A stretch of 64,000 nucleotides of DNA, taken from assembly GCA_026399375.1 (NCBI GenBank), contig JAPLRD010000035.1, positions 43,710-107,709 on the forward strand, given 5' to 3'. Both the position numbers and the translations under genes were made by a program. The DNA comes from Pseudomonadota bacterium (lineage in GTDB: Bacteria; Pseudomonadota; Gammaproteobacteria; Burkholderiales; SG8-39). Positions 30,309 through 46,908 of this stretch are shown here, piece after piece (positions within the stretch are counted from its first letter, which is position 1; each line of letters begins with the position of its first letter). Under the pieces are notes generated by a model. The model searched no databases, was not told the DNA's origin, and saw nothing but the letters and a program-made list of their open reading frames with translations.

Positions 30309-31683
<1,375 letters not shown>

Positions 31684-31691
31684 GGAGATGC

Positions 31692-33215
31692 ATGATGAAA
31701 AAATTGATAGCTCTACTCGCGCTGTTAGGCGCCTGCAACTTCGCGGTTACGGCCGTTGCGCAGGACAAACCGGCCGCGCCCGCGGCGGAGGCAAAGCCGG
31801 CTGAAGCAGCTCCGGCTGCGCCAGCCCCGGGTGCGCCGGTCGCCGCAACTGCGGCCCCTGCGGCAGCAACGCCCGCCGCCACCGCGACACCGGCGCCAGC
31901 GCCGGTACCGAACAAGGGCGACACAGCCTGGATGATCGTCGCCACGGTTCTGGTGATCATGATGACCATCCCCGGCCTCGCGCTTTTCTACGGCGGCCTG
32001 GTGCGGACCAAGAACATGCTGTCGGTCCTGATGCAGGTCTTCGTCACCTTCTCCCTGATCAGCGTGCTGTGGGTGCTCTACGGCTACAGCATTGCGTTCA
32101 CCGAGGGGAATGCCTTCTTCGGCGGTTTTTCGCGCCTGTTCCTTTCCGGCATAACCGGCGACTCCACTGCAGCTACCTTTAGCAAGGGCGTGGTAATTCC
32201 GGAATACATCTATGTCGTATTCCAGCTCACTTTCGCCGCCATCACGCCTTGCCTGATCATAGGCGCATTTGCCGAGCGGGTGAAATTCTCGGCGGTGCTG
32301 CTGTTCATGGTGTTGTGGTTCACATTTGCCTACCTGCCGATCGCGCACATGGTCTGGTTCTGGTCCGGTCCGGACGCGTTCACCGATGCTGCCGCGGCGG
32401 AAAAAGCCACTGCGACCGCGGGCTGGCTGTTCCAGAAAGGTGCCCTCGATTTCGCCGGCGGCACGGTGGTGCACATCAACGCCGGTATCGCGGCGCTGGT
32501 CGGCGCTTACGTGATCGGCAAGCGCATCGGCTACAACAAGGAAGCCATGACGCCGCACAGCCTTACCTTGACCATGGTGGGTGCTTCGCTGCTGTGGGTG
32601 GGCTGGTTCGGCTTCAACGTCGGTTCCAACCTCGAAGCCACGGGTACCGCCGCCATGGTGTTCGTCAACACTCTGGTTGCGACTGCGGCCGCGACCCTCT
32701 CCTGGCTGTTCTTCGAGAACATGTTCAAGGGCCGACCGTCCATGCTGGGCGCCGCCTCGGGTGCGGTCGCCGGTCTGGTCGCCATTACCCCGGCTTGCGG
32801 CTATGTCGGCCCGATGGGTTCGATCGCACTGGGCGTTCTCGCAGGCGGGCTCTGCCTCTGGGGTGTGAGCGGACTGAAGCGCATGCTGGGCGCGGACGAC
32901 TCGCTCGACGTGTTCGGCGTGCATGGCGTCGGTGGAATTCTCGGCGCCCTGGGCACCGGCGTGTTTGCCGCGCCATCGCTTGGCGGTACGGGCATCTATG
33001 ATTACGTCACCAACAAGGTTGCGCCCGACTATTCGATCATGAACCAGGTCATCATCCAGGCAACTGGCGTCCTGACCACGATCGTCTGGTCCGGCGTGGT
33101 GGCGTTCATTGCTTACAAGATCGTCGACATGGTCATCGGCCTGCGCGTGCCGGAAGAGGAAGAGCGCGAAGGCCTGGACATCACGTCTCACGGCGAGACC
33201 GCGTACCACGTGTAG
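31692..33215 (+). CDS. amt: Ammonium transporter
   Basis: DTAWMIVATVLVIMMTIPGLALFYGGLVRTKNMLSVLMQ; DFAGGTVVHINAGIAALVGAYVIG; VHGVGGILGALGTGVFA. Confidence 0.97.
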   Translation: MMKKLIALLALLGACNFAVTAVAQDKPAAPAAEAKPAEAAPAAPAPGAPVAATAAPAAATPAATATPAPAPVPNKGDTAWMIVATVLVIMMTIPGLALFYGGLVRTKNMLSVLMQVFVTFSLISVLWVLYGYSIAFTEGNAFFGGFSRLFLSGITGDSTAATFSKGVVIPEYIYVVFQLTFAAITPCLIIGAFAERVKFSAVLLFMVLWFTFAYLPIAHMVWFWSGPDAFTDAAAAEKATATAGWLFQKGALDFAGGTVVHINAGIAALVGAYVIGKRIGYNKEAMTPHSLTLTMVGASLLWVGWFGFNVGSNLEATGTAAMVFVNTLVATAAATLSWLFFENMFKGRPSMLGAASGAVAGLVAITPACGYVGPMGSIALGVLAGGLCLWGVSGLKRMLGADDSLDVFGVHGVGGILGALGTGVFAAPSLGGTGIYDYVTNKVAPDYSIMNQVIIQATGVLTTIVWSGVVAFIAYKIVDMVIGLRVPEEEEREGLDITSHGETAYHV

Positions 33216-33250: not shown

Positions 33251-33994
33251 TTATTCGACGGGCACCCGCAAGGGTGCCCGTTTCCTTTTGGCGTTCCCTG
33301 GCGGCGTGGCGGGTTTGAATTCGCGGGTGAAATCGGCGGTGCGCCGCCGCATGGCGGTGAGCGCGGCCCGGCCTTTCGCTGTGAGAAAGGGTTCGACCAG
33401 CAGCCCGATCCCCTGGCCTACGTACTTGTCGAGGCTGAATCTGGCGCGCAGGGCCCAGTGCTTTAGCGCCCAGGCGTGGCAAAAATTGACGTACTGATAG
33501 ATCAGGAGATATTCATTGACCTCGCGCATGTGGCCGCCGGAAATGCAGGCGCGCAGGCAGCCTTGAAGCAAGCGGTTGGTCCGCGTTTCGTCCTCCTTCA
33601 CCAGCGCCCGGCGATCGGCGCGCAGCGATTTGGTCGAACGGTAGGCGAGCACGGTTGCTTCGCGCAGTCCGTCGACGATGGTGCAATACGCCCATAGGGC
33701 CATGCACAGCCGCTCGACCGGGTGCTTCACGCCTTCCAGGCGCGGCGGGATTTCCTTTTCGTACGTCTCCAGCACCAGCTTCAGCGAAAGAAACAAAATG
33801 TCGTCCTTGTCGCCGAAATACTGGTAAATCAGTCCGGTGCTGATGCCTGCTTCACGGGCAATCTGCGATATGGTGGTGGTGTAATAGCCTTCGTCGGAAA
33901 AGAGCTTCACCGCGGCGCGCAGGATCTGACCGCGCCGTTCCTCCACCAGTCTGGCGTCCGTGACTACGCTTTGCACATGTCCCGGCGGTTTCAT
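33251..33994 (-). CDS. TetR-family transcriptional regulator
   Basis: RRGQILRAAVKLFSDEGYYTTTISQIAREAGISTGLIYQYFGDKDDILFLSLKLV. Confidence 0.9.
   Translation of the reverse strand: MKPPGHVQSVVTDARLVEERRGQILRAAVKLFSDEGYYTTTISQIAREAGISTGLIYQYFGDKDDILFLSLKLVLETYEKEIPPRLEGVKHPVERLCMALWAYCTIVDGLREATVLAYRSTKSLRADRRALVKEDETRTNRLLQGCLRACISGGHMREVNEYLLIYQYVNFCHAWALKHWALRARFSLDKYVGQGIGLLVEPFLTAKGRAALTAMRRRTADFTREFKPATPPGNAKRKRAPLRVPVE
33260..33290 (+). terminator. Rho-independent terminator downstream of amt
   Basis: GGGCACCC-GCAA-GGGTGCCC-G-TTTCCTTTT; preceded by a second IR CCGCTCC-TGAC-GGAGCGG. Confidence 0.8.
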
Positions 33995-34133: not shown

Positions 34134-34952
34134 TCAATTACCCTCGAACGCGGGCTTTTGCTTGGCCACGAACGCGTTGTAGGCGCGCGTGAAATCCTTG
34201 GTCTGCATGCAGATCGCCTGCGCCTCGGCCTCGGTTTCCAATGCCTGTTCGATGGTCTGGTTCCATTCCTGATGCAGGCACTTCTTGGTCATCGAATGCG
34301 CGAACGCCGGCCCGTCGGCGATTTCCTTCGCCATGGTGTGCGCACGTTCGAGCAGCTTGTCCTTGGGCACCAGTTCGTTGTAATAGCCCCAGGCGTGGCC
34401 TTCCTGCGCCGTCATGGCGCGGCCGGTGTAAAACAACTCCGAAGCGCGGCCCTGTCCGATGATGCGGGGCAGTATGGCGCAGGCGCCCATGTCGCAACCG
34501 GCCAGGCCGACGCGCGCGAACAAGAACGCCGTCTTGCACTCCGGCGTGCCGTAGCGCAGGTCGCTCGACATCGAAATAATGGCTCCCGCTCCGGCGCAGA
34601 TGCCGTCGACCGCCGATATGATCGGTTGCGGGCAGGTACGCATTTCCTTCACCAGATTTCCAGTCATGCGGGTAAAGGCGATCAGACCGGTCATGTCCAT
34701 CTTGGTGAGCGGGCCGATGATTTCGTGCACGTCGCCGCCGGAGCAGAAGTTCCCGCCCTCGCCGGTGAAGACGACCGCTCGAACGTCCTCCGCGTATTGC
34801 AGCTTGTGGAAGGTGTCGCGCAGCTCGGCATAGCTCTCGAACGTCAGCGGATTCTTGCGTTCCGGCCGGTTTAGCGTGATCGTTCCGACACGATCCTTCA
34901 CTTCCCATTTGAAATGCTGGGGACGCCATTCGGCGGCTTTGAGTTTGTACAT
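34134..34952 (-). CDS. Enoyl-CoA hydratase/isomerase family protein
   Basis: [67 protein letters not shown]. Confidence 0.92.
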
Positions 34953-34990: not shown

Positions 34991-35737
34991 TCAGCCGGCA
35001 AGGACGAGCCCGCCGCTGACGCTGAGGATTTGACCGGTGACGAAGTCGGCCCGGCTACTGGCAAAGAACAGCACGGCATCGGCGATCTCCGAAGGTTTCG
35101 CCAGACGGCCCATCGGCGTCACCCGGACGAAGGCTTCGCGGTGTTTCTCCGGCACGACGGCCAGCAGCGGGGTGTCCGTCGGCCCCGGGCAGACGCAGTT
35201 CACGTTGATGTTGAACCGCGCCATCTCCCGTGCAAGCGACTTGGTGAATGCGATTGCGCCTCCCTTGGCGCCGGCATACACCGACTCGCCGAGGCTGCCT
35301 ACGCGGCCTGCGTCGCTGGAGACGGTGACGATCTTTCCGGTCTTGCGCTCTATCATGTCGTCCAGAAACGCGCGCGTCACTGCGATTGGCCCGAACAAAT
35401 TGAGGTCGATGACTTTGCGCCAGAAATCGGGAGTGTTCTTGACGAAGGGTTCGATCTTGCCCCAACCGGCGACGTTGGCGACGATGTCGACATGTCCCCG
35501 GCGCTTATATGCAGCCTGCTTGAACGCCTCGATCGAATCGAGGTCCGTCACATCGAGCCGGATGAAATCCGCGCCCCAACCCTTCGCGCGAATATCCGCC
35601 GCCACTTGTTCGCCCGCTTCCACGGCGATGTCGCCGAGCAGCACATGTGCGCCCGCCTGCGCCAGGGTTTCCGCAGTCGCACGCCCGATTCCCGAGGATG
35701 CCCCGGTGATTACCGCCGTCTTGCCGTCTAATCGCAT
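34991..35737 (-). CDS. SDR-family oxidoreductase, 2-hydroxycyclohexanecarboxyl-CoA dehydrogenase (BadH)-like
   Basis: [58 protein letters not shown]. Confidence 0.88.
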
Positions 35738-35881
35738 TTTTCGCTCCAGAACAATAAAAAATTTCCGCCTTCAAACAATCGGTCCCCAAGCCGCTCCCTG
35801 AAACCGCGTCTGCCCCGATTCAAATGGCTCGAACCGGGTCGCAGCTCACGCGCCCTTCGCCATGCCGCCGGCCGGTGCTTG

Positions 35882-35903
35882 ACTGAATGAGTATTCATTC
35901 AGT
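35882..35903. promoter_or_regulatory. Candidate TetR/FadR-type operator palindrome
   Basis: ACTGAATGA-GTAT-TCATTCAGT, perfect 9-bp arms, in the divergent SDR/FAH intergenic region. Confidence 0.7.
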
Positions 35904-36196
35904 ATGATAAAAGTAACACGTTTGATGCCGGAAATGCAACAAGCGCATGGACAACCAAGAGGAGCCCGCGGGCAATCCGACATGCCCGCTCGGCGCGGTC
36001 AATGGATTGACGACGGGTGAACCGCGCCTTTTCGACCGTCCGGTCTTACCCCGCGGGCCCGGAGCCGGTAGAATTCATTCGTATCCAATAAAATGACACG
36101 CTAGGCGCCGATAAAGGAGCGGGCCGCAGCGACGCGTTCTTCGCGCACCTTGCTTTCCACGCCGGACAGCCCGACCATTCTGAAAAGGAAACCGAA

Positions 36197-36901
36197 TTGA
36201 GTTACGCCGTCGAAATGTGGCAGCAGCCTTCCCTGCCTGTGGTTGGCTCCAATGACCGTTTTCCGGTGCGGCGCATATTCTGCGTCGGCCGCAACTATGT
36301 CGAACACCAGAAGGAAATGGGCGGCGACGGCCGCGAGCAGCCGTTCTTCTTTTGCAAGGCACCGCATGACTTGGTGGCGGTAAACGCCGGAGAGACCGGC
36401 AGGATCCACTATCCCCCCATGACCAGCAACTATCATTGGGAAACAGAAATGGTCGCGCTGATCGGCAAGGGTGGCAGAAAGATCGCCGCCGAACGCGCCA
36501 ACGAGCACGTCTGGGGCTATGCAGTCGGCCTCGACATGACACGCCGCGATTTGCAGCAGCAGGGAAAAGACAAGGGTCGGCCCTGGAGTTTCGGCAAGGA
36601 CTTCGACGAGGCGGCACCATGCGGACCGGTCACGCCGGCAAGCAAGACTGGGCATCCGTCCAAGGGCAAGCTCTGGCTCAAGGTGAACGGGGAGTTTCGC
36701 CAGCAATCGGACATCGACCAGATGATCTGGAGCGTGCCCGAGCAGATCGCGTTTCTTACCCAGTACTACACTCTCGAAGCCGGCGATGTGATTTTCACCG
36801 GCACTCCGGCGGGAGTGGGTGCGGCCAAAGCGGGCGACGAGTTGGTCGCCGGCATTGACGGACTGGGCGAGTTGCGCGTGAGCATCGTCGCGCCGCGCTG
36901 A
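36197..36901 (+). CDS. Fumarylacetoacetate hydrolase-family protein (maleylpyruvate hydrolase-like)
   Basis: RRIFCVGRNYVEHQKEMG; WETEMVALIGKGGRKIAAERANEHVWGYAVGLDMTRRDLQ; GDVIFTGTPAGVGAAKAGD; TTG start. Confidence 0.9.
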   Translation: MSYAVEMWQQPSLPVVGSNDRFPVRRIFCVGRNYVEHQKEMGGDGREQPFFFCKAPHDLVAVNAGETGRIHYPPMTSNYHWETEMVALIGKGGRKIAAERANEHVWGYAVGLDMTRRDLQQQGKDKGRPWSFGKDFDEAAPCGPVTPASKTGHPSKGKLWLKVNGEFRQQSDIDQMIWSVPEQIAFLTQYYTLEAGDVIFTGTPAGVGAAKAGDELVAGIDGLGELRVSIVAPR

Positions 36902-36919: not shown

Positions 36920-38392
36920 ATGAACGCCGCCGGATATCTGCTTGCCACCGGAGAAGCCGGCGCGATCGCGCTGGAATGCGGTGACGAACGTCTGAACTAC
37001 GACGAGCTGCGTATCGCAGTGGGACGTGCGGCGACCGCATGGCGTGCGCGCGGGCTTCTGCAAGGCGAGCGCGTGCTGGTGTTCGCGCCGGACGGCATTG
37101 CCTGGGCCATTGCCTATCTTGGCGCCATCTGGGCCGGTGGCGTCGCGGTCGGGCTCAATTCACGCTTGTTCGAGCGGGAACTGTCGGTAGTGCTTTCGGA
37201 GTCCGAAGCGCGTTTTATCTGGTGCAACGAAAGTTCCCGCGTGTTGCTGGAGCGCCTGCTCGCCGCTAATCCCAATCCGCCGCAACTGGTCATCGATGCG
37301 CAATGGAGCGCCGGCCTGCAGAAGTTCGATCCCGTCACCGCAGCCGATTTGCCCGATGATGCTCCCGCAATTTGGATCTATACCTCCGGTACGACCGGAC
37401 TACCGAAGGCGGTCATACACGCCCAGCGCACCTTCATCGCCAGCGCAGATTTCGCGCGGGGAATTATCGGCCTCACCTCAAAGGACAGGCTCTACGCCTC
37501 GTCCAAGATGTTCTTCGCCTATGCGCTCGGCAACAGTTTTATGGCGGGCTTGCGTTTGGGCGCAACGGTCATCCTCGATCCGGAATGGCCCACCGCCGAG
37601 CGCGTCGCCGAAATCGCCGAGCGGTACCGTCCGACAGCCTTGTTTTCCGTGCCCACGCTTTATCTCAAGATGCTGCAGACGAACGTCGCGCCGCGCCTGG
37701 TCGCGGCCGGTGTGCGGCATTATGTTTCGGCGGGAGAGACACTTCCTCCGGCCGTGAGGCAAGGGTGGCAGGACGCGACGGGGGTGGCGCCGGTTTCAGG
37801 TTATGGTGCCTCGGAACTCGTGGTCCTCGTTTTCTATTGCGGCGACGACAGCATGCGGCTGAAACCGGCGCCGCGGCTTGAATACGTTACACGCGATGGC
37901 GCCGAGGACGGCGCGCCACAACGTCTGTGGCTGCAGCATCCGTCGGTTGCGCTGGGCTACTGGCGCCGACCCGAGGCCGAGCGCGACAGTTTCTCCGACG
38001 GACGCTTTTCCCCCGGGGACTTGTTCCGGCAATGCGATGACGGATATCTCGAGTTCTGCGGGCGGGACGACGACATGCTGAAGATTTCAGGACAGTGGGT
38101 CAGCATCCTCCAGGTCGAGCAGGCGCTGCTGGCGGCAAGCGCTGGCTGCGTCGAAAGCCTGGCGGCGGTCGGGTTCGACAACGCCGAGGGTTTGATCTCG
38201 ATCGCCTTGTTCGCCGTCGCCGCCAAGGGGCAGGAGACGCAGGCGCGCAAATGCATAGAAGTGGGAATCGAAGCGTTGCCGAAGCTCAAGCGTCCGCGAC
38301 TCGTCAAGTGGGTGACAGAACTGCCGCTTACCGCCACCGGCAAGTTGCAGCGGCGCAAGCTGAAACAAATGCATCTAGAAGGTGCCGCCTGA
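36920..38392 (+). CDS. Benzoate-CoA ligase family acyl/aryl-CoA synthetase
   Basis: AIWIYTSGTTGLPKAVIHAQRTF AMP-binding motif; YGASELVV; GRDDDMLKISGQWVSILQVEQALLA; PLTATGKLQRRKLKQ. Confidence 0.9.
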   Translation: MNAAGYLLATGEAGAIALECGDERLNYDELRIAVGRAATAWRARGLLQGERVLVFAPDGIAWAIAYLGAIWAGGVAVGLNSRLFERELSVVLSESEARFIWCNESSRVLLERLLAANPNPPQLVIDAQWSAGLQKFDPVTAADLPDDAPAIWIYTSGTTGLPKAVIHAQRTFIASADFARGIIGLTSKDRLYASSKMFFAYALGNSFMAGLRLGATVILDPEWPTAERVAEIAERYRPTALFSVPTLYLKMLQTNVAPRLVAAGVRHYVSAGETLPPAVRQGWQDATGVAPVSGYGASELVVLVFYCGDDSMRLKPAPRLEYVTRDGAEDGAPQRLWLQHPSVALGYWRRPEAERDSFSDGRFSPGDLFRQCDDGYLEFCGRDDDMLKISGQWVSILQVEQALLAASAGCVESLAAVGFDNAEGLISIALFAVAAKGQETQARKCIEVGIEALPKLKRPRLVKWVTELPLTATGKLQRRKLKQMHLEGAA

Positions 38393-38446: not shown

Positions 38447-39073
38447 ATGGCGCGCGTTAGATCCCAGGACTACGACGTAATCAAGCAGTCGATTATCGAC
38501 TGTGCGGCGAATCTATTCGCAACGAACGGATTCGCAGGAACGTCCATCAACGAGCTTGCCGAGGCCGCCGGTCTCTCCAAAGCGGGGGTCTACCATTACT
38601 TCGATTCCAAGAGCGAGATCCTTCGCGCCATGCTCACCGCGCATCTCGAGGCAGTGACAGAAATCGTGGATACCGCCCTGAACACCTCGGAGCCGCCACG
38701 AGCCAAGTTCATTACCTTTACCCGATTGATGATCGAAAACTATACGCGACCCGCGTCCAGAAACCAGCATATCGTATTGATGTCCGATATAGGCTCGCTG
38801 CCCGCAAAGGATCGCGATTTCGTCATCGCCACCGAGCGGCGGGTGGTTCGGGCAATCGAGAGGCTGCTGCAAAGCATCCATCCGCAAATTGAAGCGCATC
38901 AGCACCTGGCCAGGCCGTTGACCATGCTCTTTTTCGGCATGATCAACTGGACCGATAATTGGTACTCGGAGAAGGGCCGCATGTCGCCTTCTGAACTGGC
39001 GCTGTTGGCGGCCAATGTGTTCCTCAATGGTCTGGAGCACACAGACTATTCTGCTATTAACACACAGGGCTAG
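38447..39073 (+). CDS. TetR-family transcriptional regulator
   Basis: IIDCAANLFATNGFAGTSINELAEAAGLSKAGVYHYFDSKSEILRAML. Confidence 0.92.
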   Translation: MARVRSQDYDVIKQSIIDCAANLFATNGFAGTSINELAEAAGLSKAGVYHYFDSKSEILRAMLTAHLEAVTEIVDTALNTSEPPRAKFITFTRLMIENYTRPASRNQHIVLMSDIGSLPAKDRDFVIATERRVVRAIERLLQSIHPQIEAHQHLARPLTMLFFGMINWTDNWYSEKGRMSPSELALLAANVFLNGLEHTDYSAINTQG

Positions 39074-41889: not shown

Positions 41890-41908
41890 GTAACCGTTCA
41901 CCGGTTAC
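41890..41908. promoter_or_regulatory. Candidate operator palindrome in the meaB/mutase divergent region
   Basis: GTAACCG-TTCAC-CGGTTAC, perfect 7-bp arms, about 80 bp upstream of the mutase start. Confidence 0.5.
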
Positions 41909-44070: not shown

Positions 44071-44269
44071 CGCTGAATTGCGGCAACGCGAGATTTGCCC
44101 GAGGCGTTGTCGCGCTGCCCGAGCGCAGAACGACCGGCATGTTCCGCATGCTGGCGCCGGAAGATCCAAAACAGGTAGGCGATCGCTTTTAATAATGGCA
44201 TGATCGCAAAATTCCCATCGGGCCGACCATTAGGCCGAAAGTCGGCGCCAAATGTTTTCAGGAGGCGGC

Positions 44270-44713
44270 ATGCTACCACCACGAATCGACACCAAGGCCG
44301 TACAGGCCGCAATGGGCGAATACGCCGACAAAGACCAGACACTGGCGCAGCGCGCTGCGATCTATCAAGAGTTGCTCGGCTTCGTTCCGCCGCGCATCGA
44401 GGCACGTCTCAATGTGACCGGCGCGCTTGACCCGAAAATGCTGGAACTGCAGGAGAGCATGCGCGAACACGGCATGTATCCCAAATGCTTCGACGTAAAG
44501 ACAGCGCAGCTCATGCTGTTTGGCATGCTGCTGATGGACATGAGTGACGCGGCCCAGTTGCACGGAATTGCGGCGCGCCGTGGCGGGGCCAGTTGGGAGG
44601 AAATGCAGGCGGTGATCAACCTGTGTTTCCTGTTTCGCGGCTTGCCGGCCGCCAATCGTGGCGCGGAGATTCTCGCCAACATTGCCAAACGCGAGTCCGA
44701 GGCCGCCGTCTGA
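44270..44713 (+). CDS. Carboxymuconolactone decarboxylase (CMD/AhpD-like) family protein
   Basis: ELLGFVPPRIEARLNVTGALDPKMLELQESMREH...QLMLFGMLLMDMSDAAQLHGIAARRGGASWEEMQAVINLCFLFRGLPAANRGAEIL; GGAGG RBS. Confidence 0.75.
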   Translation: MLPPRIDTKAVQAAMGEYADKDQTLAQRAAIYQELLGFVPPRIEARLNVTGALDPKMLELQESMREHGMYPKCFDVKTAQLMLFGMLLMDMSDAAQLHGIAARRGGASWEEMQAVINLCFLFRGLPAANRGAEILANIAKRESEAAV

Positions 44714-45997: not shown

Positions 45998-46077
45998 GTT
46001 GCGCCCGATTACGGGGCCAAAGGCGAGAGAGTCGACGCATACGCGCAGGCCACATGCTGCCGCCAGCGGAAGTACGA

Positions 46078-46908
46078 ATGAACCCAGGAATCATTGCCGC
46101 AGCGGTCGTTCCTCACGTGCCAACGCTGGGACTGGCCGAAAATACGCCGGAATTCCAGCTTACGCTGGCGGAGGGCGAGAGGTCACTTGGGCGCGCGCTA
46201 CGCGCGCTCAAGCCCGACGTATTCGTGGTCAATTCCTCCCACTGGGTCTGTACTTTCGGCTGGTATGCGACTTGCCAGACTCGGCACGAAGGGGTTTGTG
46301 TCGCGGATGAAGCGCCGGATTTAATTCCAGGCATATCCTACGCACGCAAAGGCGATGCGGAATTTGCGTCGGCCTTGGTCGAGCAATGGCAGGCGCAAGG
46401 GATTCCGGGTGGCCGCAACGATACTCCGCACTACGCTTGGGACTACGGCAGCCTGGTGCCGCTCCTGTATCTGGATCCGGAAGCAGAAATCCCGGTGGTG
46501 CAGATCCCTACGGTAATCATGGCCGATCACGCTGAATGCATGCAGGTCGGCCGCGCCGTGCACGCAACGGCGAAGCGCCTCGGCAGGCGGGTCGTCTTTC
46601 TGGCCAGTTCCGCGTTTTCGCACCACCTGGTGCGGGGCCGACATTTCAAGCCCGCGCCGGAACGCGAGGCGCTGGACAGCCGCTTCATCGATCAGCTGAA
46701 AAGGGGCGCGGTGAATGAAGCTCTTGCTTGGTTTCCGGAGTACAGCCGTGCCGCTGTGGCCGAAATGAACGGCAAGCCCTTGGCCGTATTGTTGGGCATC
46801 CTCCAGGGCCTGCATGAGGACGGCACGAACCTGGTTGGCGAGCAGTTCGGGGGCTACGCGCAGTCTTCCGGCAGCGGCAACGCAAGCGTGGTGGTGTGGC
46901 GCCGATGA
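46078..46908 (+). CDS. Class III extradiol dioxygenase (LigB superfamily) protein
   Basis: IIAAAVVPHVPTLGLAE; VFVVNSSHWVCTFGWYATCQTRHEGV; VFLASSAFSHHLVRGRHF; start MNPGII. Confidence 0.82.
   Translation: MNPGIIAAAVVPHVPTLGLAENTPEFQLTLAEGERSLGRALRALKPDVFVVNSSHWVCTFGWYATCQTRHEGVCVADEAPDLIPGISYARKGDAEFASALVEQWQAQGIPGGRNDTPHYAWDYGSLVPLLYLDPEAEIPVVQIPTVIMADHAECMQVGRAVHATAKRLGRRVVFLASSAFSHHLVRGRHFKPAPEREALDSRFIDQLKRGAVNEALAWFPEYSRAAVAEMNGKPLAVLLGILQGLHEDGTNLVGEQFGGYAQSSGSGNASVVVWRR

Follow-up and report, generated by a model that had tools for sequence, protein, structure and literature searches.

Does the inverted repeat that lies between two divergent catabolic genes in this DNA serve as a binding site for a regulator and, if so, for which regulator and in response to which signal? 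The window (the whole stretch analysed, 64,000 nucleotides) reads ACTGAATGAGTATTCATTCAGT at 35882-35903, with 9-bp arms, ACTGAATGA and TCATTCAGT, on either side of the 4-nt spacer GTAT. As the preliminary description stated, the site falls within a 459-bp gap between the start of an SDR gene (35737, minus strand) and that of an FAH-family gene (36197, plus strand). It was also called a perfect 22-bp palindrome, which is true of the perfectly complementary arms but slightly overstates the whole; because GTAT is not self-complementary, the element is an inverted repeat with a 4-nt spacer. The core, TGAATGAN4TCATTCA, occupies 35884-35901, and the SDR start is 147 bp away from it. The features of the locus are collected in Table 1.

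Table 1. Features at and around the inverted repeat, in window coordinates
Feature	Position	Strand	Evidence
TetA, TetR-family regulator, predicted cognate repressor	33251-33994	-	PF00440, PF17932; co-occurrence; orthologue alignment; model
Enoyl-CoA hydratase family protein (ECH), PRK08258 family	34134-34952	-	NF006107, 488 bits (cut-off 330)
SDR, BadH-like dehydrogenase, first gene of SDR-ECH-TetA operon	34991-35737	-	Pfam adh_short_C2; synteny
Sigma-70-like promoter TTGACT-N18-TATGAT toward FAH operon	35879-35908	+	10/12 matches
Predicted operator ACTGAATGA-GTAT-TCATTCAGT	35882-35903		sequence; consensus of 56 sites; 4 genome copies
FAH-family hydrolase, first gene of divergent operon, TTG start	36197-36901	+	PF01557, 194 bits
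Benzoate/3-hydroxybenzoate-CoA ligase-like AMP ligase	36920-38392	+	NF053567 and TIGR02262 scores
TetB, second TetR; not taken as the site's conserved partner	38447-39073	+	PF17932 C-terminal domain; distribution
Accessory segment: TetB, PaaK-like ligase, MeaB-like GTPase, B12 acyl-CoA mutase subunits	38447-44070		gene order
Small conserved protein, directly downstream of ligase in relatives	44252-44713	+	84-88% identity, syntenic relatives
HpaD-like extradiol dioxygenase, part of ancestral divergent cluster	46054-46908	+	synteny

The symmetry and length of the repeat carry little weight, since about 0.4 repeats with 9-bp arms and a 4-nt spacer are expected per 64 kb from base composition, and palindrome length was dropped as evidence for that reason. 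The weight lies in the identity of the motif. The 56 distinct perfect sites from this genome and its relatives give the consensus ACTGAATGA-NYRN-TCATTCAGT, with which the window site agrees at every position. The site is kept in place across dozens of relatives, in sequence and in position, while the flanking intergenic DNA diverges. Such conservation, together with the ties to one regulator and to promoters described below, makes it extremely improbable that the repeat is a chance palindrome, for all that the background expectation would allow one, or a structural element such as a terminator or attenuator instead of a protein-binding site. The arms are A+T-rich, which further argues against a terminator, and a terminator scan of the window did not report 35882-35903. 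The comparisons indicate that the repeat is almost certainly a real repressor-binding site sitting on a promoter, with binding itself a prediction.

A sequence-pattern search of the 5.36-Mb genome found four perfect copies of TGAATGAN4TCATTCA, compared to about 0.003 expected from composition, and no match to the reversed pattern used as a control. A relaxed pattern, applied to the whole genome, yielded no further site, merely a register shift of one of the four; a site with two mismatches lies on C355 before another ABC substrate-binding gene. All four perfect copies precede CoA-linked catabolic or ABC-uptake operons. Besides the window site, one (C178:3923) lies between a LivK-H-M transporter operon and genes for an OYE-type flavoenzyme and a CoA ligase, one (C226:11377) precedes genes for a 4HBT thioesterase and an acyl-CoA dehydrogenase, and one (C168:6848) precedes a LivHMGF-K operon that has CoA ligases. 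The genome-wide scan suggested in the preliminary description, in which random placement would speak against an operator, thus put every copy on the promoter of a catabolic or transport operon. The assembly is a MAG of 456 contigs with an estimated completeness of 86% and contamination of 7%, so the three sites outside the window could in principle be on foreign contigs. In Sterolibacterium MAGs (L140, L143), the OYE-ligase pair of C178 adjoins the TetA cluster, which supports placing C178 in the same regulon despite the 7% contamination.

Each of the four genomic sites overlaps a sigma-70-like promoter that agrees with the consensus at 10 of 12 positions, and shuffling of the flanks gave p values of 0.001-0.004 for each of them. 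Among the 56 distinct sites, 26 were overlapped by a promoter with at least 9 of 12 matches, compared to 2.1 ± 1.35 in shuffles. Two layouts recurred. In one, TTGAC stands 14 bp ahead of the site, which contains the -10 hexamer; in the other, TTGACT stands 5 bp ahead and the site lies in the 17-18-bp spacer. The window site has the second layout, with the operator filling the spacer of the FAH-directed promoter, and the C178 site shows the same TTGACT-18-TATGAT arrangement. The FAH-side promoter boxes were not kept in all same-genus relatives, and no strong promoter directed toward the SDR was recognisable at the window site (7/12). To judge from the sequence, the overlap is the anatomy of a repressor that would occlude RNA polymerase.

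The regulator most closely linked to the site is TetA, a protein of 247 residues (from MKPPGHV) whose TetR_N helix-turn-helix (HTH) places it in the TetR family (PF00440, 61.3 bits; cut-off 24). Its AlphaFold model (pLDDT 83, 11 helices) has the all-helical two-domain TetR fold; nearly all of the best PDB matches listed belong to TetR-family regulators, and the closest are PfmR, DarR, AibR, FadR and KstR2. Going by the model, these neighbours suit a CoA-ester effector, without identifying which. Acyl-CoA-responsive control had been thought plausible, and we agree; the fold is like that of acyl-CoA-responsive TetR proteins.

Orthologues of TetA (62-87% identity) were present in 24 of the 148 other genomes searched and the perfect site in 23. 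Both occurred in 21 genomes, TetA alone in 3, the site alone in 2 and neither in 122 (Fisher p=3e-20; within the family, p=4e-15), although these p-values overstate the strength of the association because the genomes are related by descent and not independent. One of the three genomes with TetA and no perfect site (G038) has a one-mismatch version, TGAATGATTGCTCAGTCA, before the SDR; in another (G075) the contig ends 5 bp before the SDR; and in the third (G004) the locus (L134) is a 3.5-kb contig whose start falls within the SDR. Perfect sites without a close TetA orthologue were found in G011 and G033. The G011 locus (L111, 9488-9954) has two perfect sites 450 bp apart that flank a 47-residue SDR remnant, with a Liv operon on one side and a second LivK-ligase pair on the other; it is possibly a rearranged or decayed TetA locus.

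Gene order gave the same picture. The loci compared were fetched by TetA homology, and in every testable one the site was upstream of an SDR-ECH-(ACAD)-TetA operon, or of ECH-TetA where the SDR was missing. This arrangement was found in many Burkholderiales and Sterolibacterium MAGs and in many betaproteobacterial genera, with the site in a one- or two-mismatch form in eight Aromatoleum/Azoarcus genomes. Rhodobacteraceae MAGs, which are alphaproteobacterial, carry the site near TetA proteins of 55-58% identity; at 42-49% identity, degenerate versions alone were seen. The HTH region is nearly invariant over 23 TetA orthologues, which matches the conserved operator. We infer from synteny and co-occurrence that TetA is the cognate regulator of the site, to which it is predicted to bind. 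On the other side of TetA, a P-II/ammonium-transporter pair (GlnK-AmtB, 31285-33215) adjoins the gene and is kept beside it in same-genus relatives.

A TetR gene lies on each side of the divergent region, and the preliminary description treated both products as candidate regulators; the left-hand one, TetA, is borne out by synteny and co-occurrence, but the right-hand one, TetB, is not. TetB is a TetR protein with a PF17932 C-terminal domain, and the promoter overlapping the site lies upstream of its gene, so that the repeat could be the operator of a regulator made from the very operon that it would control. We consider this very unlikely. TetB has no close orthologue in the 149 genomes searched (best, 37%) though 24 of them carry the site, its HTH is only weakly like that of TetA (31% over 72 residues), and its gene is part of a segment missing from syntenic relatives. 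This accessory segment separates the ligase from the 44252 gene. In same-genus relatives (L106, L107, L128, L132 and L133) these two stand almost side by side, FAH, ligase, 44252 gene and HpaD are contiguous, and the cassette is absent. TetB was set aside as the cognate regulator on distribution and synteny.

Two other motifs were considered as operators of TetB. A TGACTGACYRGTCAGTCA-like motif, which stands beside a TetB homologue in another genome (G049, L328), was absent from the window and the genome. A perfect 7-bp inverted repeat, GTAACCG-N5-CGGTTAC, at 41890-41908, between the divergently oriented MeaB-like and mutase genes, is a candidate TetB operator. The two-subunit B12-dependent acyl-CoA mutase of the accessory segment fits no named mutase equivalog, and its nearest solved relative is 2-hydroxyisobutyryl-CoA mutase (4r3u, 254 bits).

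The genes linked to TetA, in the window and in relatives, bear on the signal. Three window proteins scored below the cut-offs of the families that they resemble. The nearest named family of the SDR is BadH (TIGR03206, 263 bits; cut-off 431), the AMP ligase scored 348 bits against NF053567 (cut-off 1000) and 299 bits against TIGR02262 (cut-off 375), and the HpaD-like protein scored 102 bits against TIGR02298 (cut-off 316). The FAH-family gene is the conserved divergent neighbour in same-genus relatives. In G064 and G073 the site precedes bzdO of a bzd-type benzoyl-CoA reductase, lying 84-106 bp upstream of it in two genomes of genus g19 (L116, 8768; L118, 8761). The bzd operon is elsewhere governed by BzdR; the placement of the site suggests that in genus g19 the bzdO operon may be under TetR control. 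A Rhodobacteraceae MAG (L159) carries the site before genes for the gamma and alpha subunits of 4-hydroxybenzoyl-CoA reductase, the alpha call being above its cut-off and the gamma call just below. Two perfect sites lie there 89 bp apart (241-347), directly upstream of the subunit genes. The site is also found between a gentisate 1,2-dioxygenase gene and the SDR (L115) and, in Aromatoleum, between the SDR and a gene for the 3-hydroxybenzoate-CoA ligase HbdA (above cut-off). The Aromatoleum gene set fits the anaerobic 3-hydroxybenzoate route of A. aromaticum, which passes via a dearomatised CoA ester and a modified beta-oxidation and has uptake of the TRAP type (PMC9765128). Since clusters for benzoyl-CoA reductase, 4-hydroxybenzoyl-CoA reductase and 3-hydroxybenzoate have the site in front of them, we expect a ring-carboxyl-CoA as inducer and not a long-chain fatty acyl-CoA, and the regulon would serve aromatic/alicyclic-acid CoA catabolism rather than fatty-acid degradation.

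The Bacillus FadR operator has the consensus TGAATGAMTANTCATTCA. The window site has identical arms and the central TA, and differs in the first spacer base, which is G and not A or C; the central 4 bp of the TetA sites as a group are NYRN. The preliminary description had named it a FadR-type TetR operator. Its TetR-type appearance over divergent catabolic genes stands, and the arms match the FadR consensus quoted there. Bacillus subtilis FadR (YsiA; PDB 1vi0, 3whb, 3whc) is likewise a TetR protein similar to TetA in its HTH, sequence (45 bits) and fold, with an operator of the same length and TGAATGA/TCATTCA arms, and with acyl-CoA effector logic like that predicted for TetA. An acyl-CoA dehydrogenase and a thioesterase are among the predicted targets in this genome. 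That the site is an operator of the Bacillus type, in which long-chain fatty acyl-CoA would be the signal and fatty-acid beta-oxidation the process controlled, is nonetheless unlikely. TetA reached 52.3 bits against the Bacillus FadR equivalog model (NF053878), for which the cut-off is 200, and the targets in relatives are the ring-acid genes described above: benzoyl-CoA reductase, a gentisate dioxygenase neighbour, 4-hydroxybenzoyl-CoA reductase and the HbdA ligase.

Other CoA-responsive systems share parts of the proposed scheme. As is proposed for TetA, MbdR of Azoarcus sp. CIB (PDB 4uds) is a TetR protein that represses a CoA pathway for an aromatic acid; its operators lie over promoters, and the inducer is the first CoA thioester (PMC4424350). 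Its sequence match to TetA, however, is limited to the HTH region (30 bits), and neither strand of the site contains the MbdR operator, ATACN10GTAT (PMC4424350). BadR of Aromatoleum sp. CIB and Rhodopseudomonas palustris is a CoA-thioester-responsive repressor of an alicyclic-acid pathway containing BadH, and is of the MarR family whereas TetA is of the TetR family; its operator, CAAN4TTG (PMC9795900), is also not in the site. AibR of Myxococcus xanthus (PDB 5k7f, 5k7h, 5k7z), solved with isovaleryl-CoA and with DNA, is among the best TetA matches (47 bits, TM 0.87 by target), but identity is about 20% and its ligand is a branched-chain acyl-CoA. In other betaproteobacteria a TetR protein, FadP, serves fatty-acid degradation (PMC5343134). 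TetA would appear to work like Bacillus FadR and MbdR and, on the features tested, belongs to neither.

We propose, with a probability of roughly 0.83, that the site is the operator of TetA and that TetA represses from it, autoregulates, and is released by the CoA thioester of a ring acid. A TetA dimer bound to the site would physically block RNA polymerase, as expected of a site within or overlapping promoter elements. TetA would in this way repress the divergent FAH-ligase operon, autoregulate the SDR-ECH-TetA operon and also repress three unlinked site-bearing operons, namely the ABC transporter facing the OYE-type flavoenzyme and CoA ligase, the thioesterase with acyl-CoA dehydrogenase, and the LivHMGF-K transporter with CoA ligases. 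Once a ring acid was taken up and activated, its CoA thioester would bind TetA and cause its release. The ligand would most likely be an aryl- or cyclohexenyl-carboxyl-CoA, for example a hydroxybenzoyl-CoA. TetR proteins can activate as well as repress, and repression is the direction that we infer here.

The site appears to mark a small, previously unassigned set of genes for the breakdown of ring acids via CoA intermediates. A literature search found no paper describing the TetA regulator, the portions of a betaproteobacterial aromatic-regulon survey available to us (PMC6449761) do not list it, and a search for the motif string returned nothing relevant. On balance, we favour the view that TetA defines an undescribed regulon of several betaproteobacterial lineages and some alphaproteobacteria, in which one aryl/alicyclic-CoA signal would be coupled to ring-acid pathways both aerobic (FAH, extradiol dioxygenase) and anaerobic (bzd-type benzoyl-CoA reductase, 4-hydroxybenzoyl-CoA reductase, 3-hydroxybenzoate). 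The operator used would be all but identical to the Bacillus FadR operator, with a different signal. A motif seen by eye has become a testable assignment of regulator, operator and regulon, open to laboratory checks because TetA and the site recur beside the HbdA-scoring gene in named Aromatoleum species that can be cultured. If true, it would provide benzoyl-CoA and hydroxybenzoyl-CoA reductase operons with a candidate repressor, and would be an instance of near-identical TetR operators serving different CoA-ester signals.
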